This document shows positions 5,803 to 10,824 of a DNA stretch of 64,000 nt, piece by piece. The stretch is from positions 62,001 to 126,000 of the forward strand of contig JAAYSV010000006.1 in assembly GCA_012518215.1 (NCBI GenBank). The letters run 5' to 3'. The translations under genes and the position numbers were made by a program. The notes beneath the pieces were generated by a model that searched no databases, was not told where the DNA came from, and saw only the letters and a list, made by a program, of their open reading frames with translations. The DNA comes from Bacillota bacterium (GTDB lineage: Bacteria; Bacillota; Dethiobacteria; DTU022; PWGO01). Positions within the stretch are counted from its first letter, which is position 1; the number at the start of each line of letters is the position of its first letter.

Positions 5803-5970
5803 ACGTATATCTATATTTGATTATAGCATCCATGGGAAAAAGGTCAACGAAAAATCCCGCCCTTCTGTTTCCCCGGGTATGTTGATATACACAGATAGGA
5901 AGTTCTGTTATAGTAAAAGTGACAGGATCATCACTTGCTCCGGTTTGAATCATCAAGGAGGTACGTACCC

Positions 5971-6909
5971 TTGAAAAAACAACACCTTTTTGGCCCTGTT
6001 CCTTCGCGGCGACTGGGCCTGTCGCTGGGTATCGACCTGGTCCCGTTCAAAACCTGTTCTCTGAATTGTGTTTACTGTGAATGTGGCCGCACCACGGATC
6101 TGACCATGACCCGGAAGGAATATGTTCCCGTGGCAGCGGTTCTTGCCGAGCTGGATCATTACCTGAAGAGTGATCCCGAACTTGACTACATCACTTTCGC
6201 CGGTTCCGGGGAACCCATGCTGCACGAGCATATCGACCGGGTGGTCGATCACATCAAGGAACGCTATCCGCAATATCCCCTCTGCCTTCTCACCAACGGT
6301 ACGCTTTTTTCTTCCGCCCGGGCACGCGACCAGATCAATCAGATTGACCTGATCGTTCCTTCCCTTGATGCCGCATCGGAAGAGGTATTCCGGAAACTGA
6401 ACCGGCCCCATCCCGATCTTGACTGCAAGGATGTTATTTCCGGACTGGTTTCCCTGCGGCACGAATACAGGGGAGAAATATGCATGGAGGTATTCATCGT
6501 TCCCGGACTGAATGACACTGACGAGGAACTGGCGGCGATCAAAAAAGCCCTGGAAAAAATCAACCCGGACCGGATTCAGCTGGGAACGCTGGATCGACCG
6601 GGAACGGAGGCATGGGTGAAGGAGGCCGCGCCGAACAGGATGTTGGAAATTGCCGAGCAACTGGGCTGTGAAGCTGAGTTGATCGAAGAGGAACCATCTC
6701 TAGCGAAAACCCCTGCCTTTGATACCGGTTATGCTGATACGATCCTGCAAACTTTACAGCGCAGGCCCTGTACCGTCGAGGATCTTTCCCGCATCATCGG
6801 TGCCCGACCCGCGGAGGTGCAGAAATATCTGCGCCAACTTTTATCTGCAGGATTGGTCGAGATGGAACGACAGAAAAGGGGCGTATTCATCAGAATCAAA
6901 GGTCATTGA
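5971..6909 (+). CDS. Radical SAM protein with C-terminal winged-helix domain
   Basis: Protein of 312 residues. The TTG at 5971 is chosen because AAGGAGGT lies eight bases upstream and the next residues (KKQHLFGPVPSRRLGLSLG) match the usual N-terminus of this COG0731-like family. The CxxxCxxC cluster motif is present as CSLNCVYC, followed by CGRTTDLT. The radical SAM barrel fills about the first 220 residues (FAGSGEPMLH and LLTNGTL are typical). The last 70 residues look like a winged helix (VEDLSRIIGARPAEVQKYLRQL), suggesting DNA binding or a substrate-recruiting function. The reaction is unknown. No gene partner is contiguous: the tRNA upstream is on the other strand and the next gene has its own promoter. 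Confidence 0.85.
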   Translation: MKKQHLFGPVPSRRLGLSLGIDLVPFKTCSLNCVYCECGRTTDLTMTRKEYVPVAAVLAELDHYLKSDPELDYITFAGSGEPMLHEHIDRVVDHIKERYPQYPLCLLTNGTLFSSARARDQINQIDLIVPSLDAASEEVFRKLNRPHPDLDCKDVISGLVSLRHEYRGEICMEVFIVPGLNDTDEELAAIKKALEKINPDRIQLGTLDRPGTEAWVKEAAPNRMLEIAEQLGCEAELIEEEPSLAKTPAFDTGYADTILQTLQRRPCTVEDLSRIIGARPAEVQKYLRQLLSAGLVEMERQKRGVFIRIKGH

Positions 6910-6964: not shown

Positions 6965-6993
6965 TTGACACCCGGACAGGCCTGTGATATATT
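6965..6993 (+). promoter_or_regulatory. Sigma-A-type promoter for the importer operon leader
   Basis: A perfect TTGACA (6965-6970) and TATATT (6988-6993) are separated by 17 bases. Transcription would start near 7000, about 320 bases before the first gene, leaving a long leader that contains the structured element and terminator described next. Confidence 0.75.
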
Positions 6994-7025
6994 TATTTTC
7001 GGATTGTTTGGCATATTGCCAGAAA

Positions 7026-7162
7026 ATTGAATAGTCTTATTTCCGAGCATTGGAACCTAAGGGAACATGGGTCCTATGGATTCAATGCCGTCAGCTCGGG
7101 GAGCTGGCCGGGGTATAATTTGGAAACGAATATGCCTTACCCTATGTACAAGGAAATTCAAT
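7026..7162 (+). ncRNA. Structured leader RNA, candidate riboswitch (possibly Moco/Tuco type)
   Basis: Several mutually compatible helices can be drawn by hand. A closing stem pairs ATTTCC (7039-7044) with GGAAAT (7152-7157), extended by ATTGA/TCAAT (7026-7030, 7158-7162). Inside are GCATTG/CAATGC (7047-7052, 7083-7088) enclosing an ACC...GGGT hairpin, an 8-bp hairpin GTCAGCTC/GAGCTGGC around 7090-7108, and GGGTA/TACCC (7111-7115, 7138-7142) enclosing ATTTG-GAAA-CGAAT, a GNRA tetraloop hairpin. This multibranch layout with a GNRA loop, and short stretches such as GCCGT...GGCC and TGGAAA...ATATGCCTTAC, remind me of the molybdenum cofactor riboswitch, compared from memory with the E. coli moaA leader. 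A structured regulatory leader is well supported; the ligand class is a guess. Confidence 0.6.
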
Positions 7163-7169
7163 CATGCAC

Positions 7170-7228
7170 AAGTCGGTTTTCTTGTATATAAAGAAAATCG
7201 GCTTTTTGTTTATATTCTTTTTTTTTAT
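7170..7228 (+). terminator. Leader terminator (probable expression platform)
   Basis: A 14-bp stem with two G-U pairs (7170-7183 with 7191-7204), a 7-base loop and a following T-rich tract form an intrinsic terminator inside the leader, after the structured element and about 95 bases before the first start codon at 7323. Its position implies conditional read-through. Confidence 0.8.
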
Positions 7229-7322
7229 CTCCATTCTGTAGCCGGCGACAAACAGGGATAAAAAAACGGGACGTTGCAATGATGCTTGAAAAATCCAAAG
7301 AAGCTTAAATGGGAGGATGATC

Positions 7323-8375
7323 ATGAAAAACAATTGCCATGGAAGAAACTTTCTGTATCTGTTGTTGCTGATCCTCATGTTGATGCCGTTTGCAGCTGTC
7401 GGTTGCGGGGATCAAGATCTGCAGGGGGACGATGAAGGCCAGGATGTTGCCGGCACTGTAGAACTGACCGATATGCTTGGACGAAAGGTGGTGGTTCCTG
7501 AAAACGTGGAAAGGATTGCTGCCCTGAGGCATCTGGGGACAATGGTATTTGCTTTGGGCGAGCAGGATAAATTGGTACATCAAGGGTTGTTTGATGCTGC
7601 CGGCCGTGCCATGGCTGATCTTGATCCGGAATTTGCCGCTCTGCCCTTTTTCAAAAATGCATCCGTGGAAGAACTGATGAAATTGAAAGTGGATTTGTTC
7701 TTCAATTATGTCGATACCGATCCCAGGGAAATAGAACAGCTGGCCGAGGTTGGCATCCCTTTCATTGCTTTGAAAAGTGAAACCATGGAAGAGAGCTACG
7801 AGGCAGTCCGTATCATGGGAAAAGCTTTGAAAGTTGAAGACAGAGCGGAAGAGTACATAGCGGCCTGCCAGGAAATTGTCAACCTGGTGGAAACCAGAAC
7901 GGACAAAATACCCCGCGGGGAGAGGCCCAGGGTATTCTTTGCGGGTCCCAAAAGTATATATACCGCTGCCACCGGTGAGATGCTGCAGGATACGATGATC
8001 AAAATGGCCGGGGGAATCAATGTGGCGGAAGACGTTGTGGGCCGATGGGCGCAGATTTCTCCGGAACAGCTGGTCGAATGGAATCCCGATATCATTTTTC
8101 TGGGATCGAGCCTCGATCAGTATGCGGCCGAAGATGTTTTCGGAAATACGGCAATTCAATCAGTGAATGCCATCAAGAACAACAGGGTATATCCTTTCCC
8201 ATCCAATATCGGATGGTGGGATTTCCCCGCACCCCACTGTGTTCTGGGAATTGAATGGATGGCTACCAAATTGCACCCGGAACTCTACCGGGACATAGAC
8301 ATGACCGAAGTTGCTGATGAGTTTTACCTTAATTACATGGGCCGGACCTTTACCGAACTTGGAGGCAAGCTTTGA
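7323..8375 (+). CDS. Lipoprotein substrate-binding protein of a FecCD-type ABC importer
   Basis: Class III periplasmic-binding-protein fold (BtuF/FepB type), 350 residues, for metal chelates, corrinoids or oxyanions. The ATG at 7323 follows GGGAGG by six bases; another ATG six bases upstream abuts that site and is unlikely. A lipoprotein signal peptide ends in the lipobox AVGC around residue 26. The mature part starts with the typical 'VELTDMLGRKVVVPENVERIAAL' segment (split here for length: VELTDMLGRK, VVVPENVERIAAL) and contains WNPDIIFLG near residue 260. It heads an operon with permease, ATPase and NTPase. The leader suggests metabolite control; if the leader senses molybdenum or tungsten cofactor, the substrate would be molybdate or tungstate, as for the FecCD-type MolBCA system. 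Iron chelate or cobalamin remain alternatives. Confidence 0.85.
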   Translation: MKNNCHGRNFLYLLLLILMLMPFAAVGCGDQDLQGDDEGQDVAGTVELTDMLGRKVVVPENVERIAALRHLGTMVFALGEQDKLVHQGLFDAAGRAMADLDPEFAALPFFKNASVEELMKLKVDLFFNYVDTDPREIEQLAEVGIPFIALKSETMEESYEAVRIMGKALKVEDRAEEYIAACQEIVNLVETRTDKIPRGERPRVFFAGPKSIYTAATGEMLQDTMIKMAGGINVAEDVVGRWAQISPEQLVEWNPDIIFLGSSLDQYAAEDVFGNTAIQSVNAIKNNRVYPFPSNIGWWDFPAPHCVLGIEWMATKLHPELYRDIDMTEVADEFYLNYMGRTFTELGGKL

Positions 8376-8396: not shown

Positions 8397-9407
8397 ATGA
8401 AGAGGTCCGTTCCTTTGATAATTATCATTGTATTTGTTGTTTCCATCATCGTCGCTTTGAATTCCGGGCGCTATCCTGTTTCCATTGTAGATGCCGCCAG
8501 GCATTTTCTCTCCGGGGCCGGGTTGACGGGCAACCGGGAACCTCTGGCCCCGGAAATGTGGGATGTGTTATACAGTATACGCCTGCCCCGCATAGTGCTT
8601 GCCCTGGCCGTGGGGGCGGCACTTTCCGTATCCGGAGCAGTATTTCAAGCTCTTTTTCGCAATCCCCTGGCCTCTCCCGATCTGCTGGGGGCCACTGCGG
8701 GTGCAAGTTTCGGTGCGGTTCTGGCTCTGCTCATTTTTCCTCCATTGAGCGTCTGGATACGTTTTTCGTCTTTTATATTTGGTATCGTGGCTGTTGCAGG
8801 TACCTATATACTGGCCTCGAGGAGCAGGGACAGGTCTGCTGCAGTTCTTATACTGGCCGGAATTGTAATCTCGGCCATATTTCAAGCGGGGGTCTCCATC
8901 ATAAAGTATCTTGCTGAACCCTACAATGAATTGCAGAAGATCGTTTTCTGGCTCATGGGCAGCCTTCAGGCCACCACATGGTCTTCTATCAGGGGGGTTC
9001 TGGGGATTACCGTTATCTGTACAGCCCTGGTGACCATTTTCAGCTGGCAATTGAATCTGATGTCCCAGGAAGATGAACAAGCTTTGTCGCTGGGGGTGGA
9101 CATTTTCAAATGGCGTATTTTCTATATCGTTATCACGGCGTTGATGATTTCTGTCAGCGTTTCCACCTGCGGTACCATCGGCTGGATTGGCCTTATCGTT
9201 CCTCATATAGCTCGCTACATCGTGGGTGCCGAGCACAAAAAATTGATCGTCACCGCGGCTTTTCTGGGAGCAGCGTTGATGCTCCTCATGGACACTGCTG
9301 CACGTTCCTTGCTGAGTTCCGAGATTCCAATTTCCATTGTTACATCCTTGATTGGAGCACCATTTCTGGGTTATCTGATTTTAAGTCAAAGAAAGGGGAT
9401 GGCGTGA
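8397..9407 (+). CDS. FecCD-family ABC transporter permease
   Basis: Membrane protein of 336 residues with about ten predicted transmembrane helices. It carries the family hallmarks: LRLPRIVLALAVGAALSVSGA-like sequence near residue 65 (SIRLPRIVLALAVGAAL), FRNPLASPDLLGATAGASFG at the first cytoplasmic loop region, and GWIGLIVPHIARYIVG near residue 265, the coupling region that contacts the ATPase. It follows the binding protein by 21 bases and is followed four bases later by the ATPase, indicating one operon. The sequence does not reveal the transported substrate. Confidence 0.93.
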   Translation: MKRSVPLIIIIVFVVSIIVALNSGRYPVSIVDAARHFLSGAGLTGNREPLAPEMWDVLYSIRLPRIVLALAVGAALSVSGAVFQALFRNPLASPDLLGATAGASFGAVLALLIFPPLSVWIRFSSFIFGIVAVAGTYILASRSRDRSAAVLILAGIVISAIFQAGVSIIKYLAEPYNELQKIVFWLMGSLQATTWSSIRGVLGITVICTALVTIFSWQLNLMSQEDEQALSLGVDIFKWRIFYIVITALMISVSVSTCGTIGWIGLIVPHIARYIVGAEHKKLIVTAAFLGAALMLLMDTAARSLLSSEIPISIVTSLIGAPFLGYLILSQRKGMA

Positions 9408-9411
9408 AAAA

Positions 9412-10206
9412 TTGAGCATTCTTGTTAACAAACTTGTAGCCGGTTATGATAGCAAAACTGTATTGAAGGGTATCGATCTGGAAATACAAAAAGGCCGCAT
9501 CTATGCCCTTCTGGGCAGAAACGGTTGTGGTAAAACCACCCTTTTAAGATGTATCAATGCCATTATAAGGCCAATCGAAGGAAACATCCAGATCGATGGT
9601 AAAGACCTGGCGAAGCTCTCCAGGCGCCATATTGCCCGCCTGGTCAGCGTGGTACCCCAGAGTACCGTCATAACTTTTGACTATTCTTCACAGGAAATCG
9701 TTCTGATGGGGGAGGCGGCCCGGATCCCCTTATGGGGCGCACCGGGTGCTGCTGAAAGAAGGCGGGCGGAAAAAGTTTTCGATCAGATAGGAATCAAGTA
9801 CCTGATGAAAAGGCCGTTCAACATGCTTTCCAGCGGGGAAAGACAGATGGTCCTTCTGGCCAGGGCATTGTTTCAAAACAGCCCTTACATGCTACTGGAT
9901 GAACCCAACTCCCATCTGGATTTTTCCAATCAACACAGGATCATGGATCTGGTTCGTCAGCTGTCCAGAGAATTGAACATTACGGTTCTGGTTACTTTGC
10001 ATGATCCCAATCTGGCCCTCTATTACTGTGACGAGGTTTTCCTTTTACATGGGGGGAAAATACTGGCCGAGGGTTGTACCGATCATGTATTGCAGGATAG
10101 TTTCCTTTCTCATGTTTACGGTGAAAATATCCGCACCGATTATACATGCAATCATGGTTTGCCGATCGTGGTACCCAAAAACGTTGCCCAACCGATGGCT
10201 ATATAA
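9412..10206 (+). CDS. ABC transporter ATP-binding protein (FecE/BtuD/MolC-like)
   Basis: ATPase of 264 residues powering the FecCD-type importer. Walker A is GRNGCGKTT (about residue 37), the Q-loop lies in VSVVPQ, the signature is LSSGERQMVLLARAL, Walker B is YMLLDEPNSHLD, and the switch histidine is in VTLHDPN. The start is TTG at 9412, four bases after the permease stop, so translation is probably coupled. The 264-residue length is normal for this family. The short C-terminal tail after the nucleotide-binding domain has no extra domain. Confidence 0.92.
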   Translation: MSILVNKLVAGYDSKTVLKGIDLEIQKGRIYALLGRNGCGKTTLLRCINAIIRPIEGNIQIDGKDLAKLSRRHIARLVSVVPQSTVITFDYSSQEIVLMGEAARIPLWGAPGAAERRRAEKVFDQIGIKYLMKRPFNMLSSGERQMVLLARALFQNSPYMLLDEPNSHLDFSNQHRIMDLVRQLSRELNITVLVTLHDPNLALYYCDEVFLLHGGKILAEGCTDHVLQDSFLSHVYGENIRTDYTCNHGLPIVVPKNVAQPMAI

Positions 10207-10215
10207 TGTAACTTT

Positions 10216-10824
10216 GTGGTCGTGGCTTGTGAGCCTGTCACGGCTCTGTTCGGGGAACAGGGGGGAGATACCATCAGCAATATTTTTCTTACCGGGGATA
10301 TCCGGATAGGCAAGAGTGCTCTCATCGACCGGGCGGTAGATGGTCTGCGTCTCAAAGCGGGGGGATTCAAAACTCTCCGTCATTACAGTGGTGGCGAACA
10401 CGATGGCTTCGTCATGGAGGATCTGAATGAAGAAAAAGTTTCTCCCGTAAATCGGCTTTTTGTGGCCAAAAAAGGTGAAAAGGGCCGCTGGAAAGACATT
10501 CCGGAAACCTTTGAGGGCTTCGGGGTTGATATTTTAAGAAAGAGTCTGTCATCGAACATCGATCTGATCATTATGGACGAGCTGGGTTATTTCGAATCGA
10601 ATGCTTTGAACTTTCAAAAGCAGGTTTTCAAATGTTTGTCCGCTTCACTCCCGGTTTTGGGGGTGGTCAAAAAGCGTTCCACCGCTTTTCTTGATCGTAT
10701 AAGAGCCATGGAAAACGTGATTGTCCTGCCGGTTACAATGGAAAACAGGGATAATGTCGGGGTGGAATTGTGTGGCATCATGATGGAGCTGCTGGCCCGT
10801 CGCCCCGGAGTTCTTCATTCATGA
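10216..10824 (+). CDS. P-loop nucleoside-triphosphatase (THEP1/NTPase_1-like)
   Basis: Protein of up to 202 residues with Walker A GDIRIGKS and a later LIIMDELGYFES that serves as Walker B, matching the small THEP1-like NTPase family also related to MobB-type P-loop proteins. It lies ten bases after the ATPase and is the last gene of the importer operon. The annotated GTG at 10216 has no ribosome binding site; GGGGGGAG (10260-10267) instead precedes an ATC codon at 10273, which would begin the protein directly at the first beta-strand (ISNIFLTGD). The family's biological role is poorly known. In this operon it may act in metal or cofactor handling, but that is inference from position only. 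Confidence 0.78.
   Translation: MVVACEPVTALFGEQGGDTISNIFLTGDIRIGKSALIDRAVDGLRLKAGGFKTLRHYSGGEHDGFVMEDLNEEKVSPVNRLFVAKKGEKGRWKDIPETFEGFGVDILRKSLSSNIDLIIMDELGYFESNALNFQKQVFKCLSASLPVLGVVKKRSTAFLDRIRAMENVIVLPVTMENRDNVGVELCGIMMELLARRPGVLHS

Follow-up and report, generated by a model that had tools for sequence, protein, structure and literature searches.

A leader in the window (the whole 64,000-nucleotide stretch of DNA analyzed here) very likely carries a P3-type Moco riboswitch that ends transcription early and in this way controls an importer of type II (FecCD/BtuCD fold) for molybdate, or possibly tungstate. The riboswitch class is known and the leader is a textbook case of it; the switch design is clear, and the target is less usual. 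Importers of the FecCD type are routinely labeled iron or B12 transporters. A Moco RNA ahead of such an operon provides a sequence-readable sign of molybdate/tungstate cargo, so that a batch of iron/B12 annotations becomes correctable and testable.

Aptamer class, regulon, and ligand

A sequence-only reading had described a consensus promoter, a multibranched foldable leader with a GNRA-capped hairpin resembling the Moco RNA class, and a terminator some 95 bases ahead of an ABC importer operon. Each of these elements was recovered (Table 1), with Peripla_BP_2, FecCD, and ABC ATPase genes downstream. The aptamer begins 36 bases past the strong promoter, and the intrinsic terminator adjoins its 3' end. 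Promoter-like sites by themselves are not rarer than chance (2 found in the scan versus 1.8 expected); terminator-like sites in that scan numbered 6 against 1.3 +/- 1.0 in shuffled sequences. Directly upstream and on the same strand, positions 5935-6909 encode a radical SAM protein that ends in an HTH of the ArsR type; its resemblance to TIGR04317, the tungsten-cofactor oxidoreductase maturase family, is weak and falls far short of the cut-off.

Table 1. Coordinates of the leader elements and operon genes in the window
Feature	Position	Strand	Details
Sigma-70-type promoter	6965..6993	+	TTGACA-17 bp-TATATT, extended -10 TG; 11/12 consensus matches; predicted start at about 7000
Moco riboswitch aptamer (RF01055), P3-containing form	7029..7171	+	75.8 bits (gathering 36), E 1.6e-16, model 1-135 of 135
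P1	7039..7157	+	7039-7044 with 7152-7157, 6 bp
P2 hairpin	7047..7088	+	CCUAAG/UAUGG internal loop = tetraloop receptor region
P3 hairpin	7090..7108	+	7090-7097 with 7101-7108, 8 bp in MFE
P4 hairpin	7110..7138	+	GAAA cap at 7123-7126
P5	7138..7148	+	Two pairs, U7138-A7148 and A7139-U7147; compensatory change from usual CC/GG
Antiterminator	7143..7190	+	7143-7158 with 7175-7190, 16 bp
Intrinsic terminator stem-loop	7170..7204	+	14 bp; T-runs to about 7228
Substrate-binding lipoprotein (Peripla_BP_2), MolA-like	7323..8375	+	Likely ATG 7323, SD GGGAGG 7311-7316; alternative start 7317
FecCD-type permease (MolB/BtuC-like)	8397..9407	+	Profile match
ABC ATPase (MolC/BtuD-like)	9412..10206	+	Profile match
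NTPase_1 (PF03266, THEP1-like) P-loop NTPase	10216..10824	+	Fourth gene of the operon; absent from the earlier reading

The leader RNA belongs to the Moco riboswitch class (RF01055), described since 2008 (Regulski et al. 2008, PMC2408646). The match is full-length and far above threshold, and the conserved fold is present with P1, P2 and its receptor, P4 with the GNRA tetraloop, and P5, together with the P3 stem of the Moco-type subgroup and a terminator platform. Besides RF01055, Rfam matches across the 64-kb window are confined to two tRNAs; RF00174 was not found anywhere in it, and a cobalamin or other riboswitch class at this leader was thus rejected. Covariation is also present: 17 of the 25 consensus pairs show at least one pair-keeping double change among 19 leaders, a count taken from a MAFFT alignment that displaces the window row by one base at P5. 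The aptamer departs from the consensus at this point. P5 is formed by UA/UA, with both pairs altered on both sides relative to the usual CC/GG, and the P5/P1 junction reads UACAAGG instead of GGAAAGG. The same P5 and junction variant occurs in a second RNA ahead of ModABC (G146:C37:3523-3659, CCUUACC...UGUACAAGG), and we consequently rejected the idea that UACAAGG is a sign of decay.

We surveyed the order (71 genomes, 52 with RF01055 at E <= 0.001) for genes controlled by such RNAs. Sorting by clustering the genes behind 99 Moco RNAs, we found moeA-moaA genes in 35 cases, Tup in 29, a FecCD-type importer in 10, Mod in 6, and Wtp in 1, with 18 other or cut. The ten FecCD-linked RNAs are spread over nine genomes, seven genera, and three families, and their operons show several gene arrangements. 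Beyond this order, three further families have the pairing as well (G123, G134 twice, G084, and G191), as do Thermacetogenium (L072) and a MAG of the Syntrophomonadaceae (L063). In one of the G134 operons the Moco RNA is followed by XdhC, FmdE, DUF364, FecCD, ATPase, and substrate-binding protein genes. Importers linked to Moco RNAs in these relatives have molybdenum/tungsten surroundings, not iron or B12 ones. A recurrent link between Moco RNA and FecCD-type importers, as suggested by these loci, appears to be new as far as we searched the literature, where we found nothing relevant joining the two; the FecCD-type target is not named in the parts of Regulski et al. considered here (PMC2408646).

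Several other features recur at these loci. Genes of the DUF364/DUF4213 family, annotated as "putative heavy-metal chelation," are repeatedly found in Moco-RNA operons and next to Mod and Mol-like importers (L072:4018-4842, L070:7910-8662, L238 at 1428-2183 downstream of the RNA, L002:1826-2569, L288:60-839). This provides a lead for the function of the family; our literature search returned nothing relevant joining DUF364 to molybdenum. A TiaS-like protein of about 250-290 amino acids is encoded under or beside Moco RNAs at three loci (L175, L176, and L144; G018:C136, G013:C31, and G015:C54), and we know of no link between TiaS and molybdenum. G015:C54, G029:C12, G042:C152, and G125:C21 have Moco RNAs in tandem, from two up to several in number, an arrangement also reported in Syntrophomonas wolfei.

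The genome from which the window derives contains three RF01055 sites: besides the window leader, ModABC and a set of moeA-moeA-moaA-mobB-type genes each have one upstream. Its ModA scores above the TIGR01256 equivalog cut-off, and the genome pairs Mod and Mol-like systems, as does Haemophilus influenzae. RNAs with P3 have been proposed to sense Moco and those without it Tuco, according to Regulski et al. (PMC2408646), which also states that direct Moco binding in vitro was never demonstrated for the Escherichia coli RNA. Folding of the P2-P5 segment gave a third hairpin, located between P2 and P4, for just 2 of the 102 Moco RNAs examined, the window leader and G052:C30. No Moco RNA of the order besides these two has P3; the second (G052:C30:328266-328402, L112:57-193) precedes genes for NHL-repeat-like and further secreted proteins rather than a recognized molybdenum gene. 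P3 is absent from all Tup-linked (29/29) and Mod-linked (6/6) RNAs of the order. At face value, the FecCD importer of the window's genome would follow Moco and its Mod and moe operons, whose RNAs lack P3, would follow Tuco, by a rule that leaks: in a phylum sample picked by length, P3-containing RNAs are found before ModA and, in five genomes, before TupA/TupABC. We therefore rejected a strict rule that P3 means Moco, and we lowered our claim about the ligand because P3-containing RNAs also precede TupABC in those five genomes. We still prefer Moco over Tuco as the putative ligand of the window RNA, with fair rather than high confidence.

The alternative that survives best, although we regard it as rather unlikely, assigns the same design to tungsten, with the RNA sensing Tuco and the importer taking mainly tungstate. 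It draws on the enzyme inventory of the genome, which encodes an AOR-family enzyme of the tungsten type (AFOR_C) and in which a MoCoBD_1 hydroxylase was not found. Both of its PF00384 molybdopterin oxidoreductases contain one in-frame TGA each (L188 and L189; G000:C55:42296-43561 and G000:C56:4016-5614) and are probably selenocysteine formate dehydrogenases. The two other Moco RNAs of the genome lack P3 and hence have the proposed Tuco form (PMC2408646), and MolA of H. influenzae binds molybdate as well as tungstate (PMC4031551). The window RNA, however, has P3, which is paired with Moco in the published survey (PMC2408646), and a search of the genome for a TupA-like protein gave no match, with a query that lacked a positive control. 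This genome has one P3-containing RNA beside two that lack P3, on two importers whose metals may overlap and put them in competition, so that whether P3 decides between Moco and Tuco becomes testable within the leaders of one organism.

A Mol-like importer and its predicted cargo

The downstream operon, comprising substrate-binding protein, FecCD permease, ATPase, and NTPase_1 genes, is MolBCA-like in its make-up, with a FecCD permease, a BtuD-like ATPase, and a class III substrate-binding protein, and we infer its substrate from this likeness and from the context. We compared it with H. influenzae MolBC-A (HI1470-HI1472; PDB 3psa and 3psh), which takes up molybdate with low affinity alongside ModBC-A (PMC4031551). 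Both are type II systems with the same permease and binding-protein types, and both have ModABC alongside. They differ in that the window operon has an NTPase_1 gene, and the word riboswitch does not occur in the H. influenzae paper (PMC4031551). The best PDB sequence matches of the window substrate-binding protein are 4hn9 (labeled "iron") and 4ovk, both uncharacterized, followed in third place by MolA HI_1472 (3psa) with an E value of 6e-25. In a comparison of the predicted structure (pLDDT 84.6), 3psa ranks 4 by fold (TM 0.75/0.80), again below 4hn9 and 4ovk, and E. coli BtuF ranks 46. Identity to MolA is only about 21% over the structural alignment, and the placement of MolA in our tree of substrate-binding proteins is weakly supported (80/48). 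The matches with a known ligand include MolA, among the best in both sequence and fold, which supports the earlier suggestion of a MolBCA-like importer.

Of the eight closest homologs of the binding protein from named genomes, seven (L064-L070) lack a Moco RNA within the sequence inspected around them; these belong to the clade of the window protein. At several loci a radical SAM protein related to AmmeMemoRadiSam flanks or follows close importer homologs (L063:4283-5287, L066:6132-8378, L067:7884-10996, L065:2653-3660, and L173 in G026:C30), and at some of these an open reading frame of about 379 amino acids with no Pfam or NCBIfam match does so as well. Two Desulfobacterium homologs, about 45-48% identical, adjoin TonB-dependent-receptor-like genes, which stand directly before the importer genes (L064:2-1984, L069:464-4918); these neighbors could point to Mo/W uptake in chelated form or gated at the outer membrane.

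Large chelates are the usual cargo of type II importers. Together with the TonB-receptor-like neighbors, this speaks for an importer that takes a metallophore complex of Mo/W or a cofactor precursor instead of the free oxyanion. We nevertheless consider this improbable, as free molybdate is what MolBC-A was found by experiment to import (PMC4031551), and metallophore synthesis genes were seen neither in the operon nor beside the Moco-linked relatives that we read.

A far weaker case can be made for an ordinary importer of iron-siderophore, haem, or B12 that has come under Moco RNA control through a molybdenum-iron or molybdenum-B12 link, since the only relatives that NCBIfam and Pfam give for the operon are generic iron/B12 ones, with NCBIfam scores that are all far below the equivalog cut-offs. 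We used cobalamin riboswitches as a control, as BtuFCD under RF00174 shares both the importer architecture and the logic of a cofactor riboswitch placed before an importer. In the order, cobalamin riboswitches precede 45 related substrate-binding proteins, in most cases by no more than a few hundred bases, and no binding protein was assigned to both RNA classes. The genome of the window itself has one of each: its BtuF-like, cobalamin-linked paralog is located on contig C9. In a tree of 61 substrate-binding proteins the cobalamin label requires 3 changes and the Moco label 8, of which 6 are forced by well-supported branches. The B12-linked proteins sampled thus form nearly one clade under another RNA class, whereas the Moco-linked proteins are found in several branches apart from it. 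It appears that the Moco link arose, or persisted, more than once in separate parts of the tree, a pattern that fits poorly with a role in B12 or iron supply. With the neighborhood and regulon evidence against it, we rejected an iron or B12 substrate.

The terminator platform

The preferred reading, a Moco-type riboswitch acting on the transcription of a Mol-like operon, is reinforced by the helices that follow the aptamer. A predicted antiterminator excludes both P1 and the terminator, because it includes the 3' strand of P1 and occupies the 5' arm of the terminator. Its duplex has a computed energy of -16.4 kcal/mol, a value reached by none of 2000 shuffles of the upstream segment (mean, -6.3). 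When we folded the growing transcript, the antiterminator was the best structure for transcripts ending between 7187 and 7200, and the terminator was best once the end had reached 7206. The complete folds are close in energy (-67.4 kcal/mol with P1 and terminator, -64.0 with the antiterminator), and the small gap could leave the decision to ligand binding and timing. Terminator-like hairpins are also present 3' of most FecCD-linked Moco RNAs and of both other Moco RNAs of the genome. The transcription-attenuating layout that had been read from the leader is therefore borne out by mutually exclusive helices.

This layout is that of a standard ligand-OFF transcription switch, and the direction of switching in the cell is likely to follow it. 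When the cofactor is scarce, the 3' strand of P1 would pair with the 5' arm of the terminator, and the operon would be transcribed. Binding of the cofactor, most likely Moco, would close P1 at the expense of the antiterminator; the terminator could then form and would switch the importer off. An ON switch, or one acting mainly on translation, is scarcely plausible here: some Moco RNAs do hold the ribosome-binding site in P1 and act on translation, according to Regulski et al. (PMC2408646), but in the window the terminator comes directly after P1, the strand of P1 takes part in the antiterminator, and the ribosome-binding site sits about 150 bases beyond P1.

NTPase_1, the fourth gene of the operon

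The product of the fourth gene scores well above the gathering threshold of PF03266 (96.5 bits, cut-off 23.9). Homologs follow the substrate-binding protein gene in two other Moco-RNA operons (G123 and G134; loci L226 and L259), both from other families; within the order, no other Moco operon has NTPase_1. Because of these two operons we dropped the idea that NTPase_1 is a chance fourth gene. We next asked how NTPase_1 genes are placed across 160 genomes. Eleven of 22 non-self loci have a Mo/W-type gene or a Moco RNA within 1.5 kb, compared with none among 40 segments of 3.5 kb taken arbitrarily from the same phylum; the reference gene list was partly added to after seeing the loci, so that the p-value of 3e-7 is not usable as it stands, and with the list fixed beforehand and without a weak radical-SAM hit the count is 6/22. 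The neighbors counted are a FecCD substrate-binding protein, DUF364, XdhC, MoCF_biosynth, MobA-like, MoCoBD_2, ModE-like/CoxS-like, and Oxidored_molyb with a Moco RNA.

From its neighborhood, NTPase_1 probably serves the cytoplasmic handling of the metal or of its cofactor. The biological role of the THEP1/NTPase_1 family is unsettled (Aquifex THEP1, PMC1079890), and the window member differs from that precedent in sitting in a Moco-RNA-controlled importer operon. A link of this THEP1-like family to molybdenum metabolism, as gene neighborhood suggests, would be new as far as our search of the literature reached, in which no paper joined the two. It would also be a first functional lead for the family. 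More broadly, we tentatively propose, with doubt and support nearly in balance, that Moco riboswitches mark widespread mis-annotated FecCD-type Mo/W importers and that the co-encoded NTPase_1 is a dedicated, so far unrecognized NTP-driven factor for Mo/W handling, such as a metal or cofactor chaperone.

NTPase_1 genes are found unusually often beside XdhC, MoeA-type, ModE-like, MobA-like, and FecCD substrate-binding protein genes (the window, L281, L282, L283, L284, L288, L297, L300, and L302). The L283 protein joins NTPase_1 and a methyltransferase in one fusion; several other loci have a methyltransferase gene of its own next to NTPase_1.
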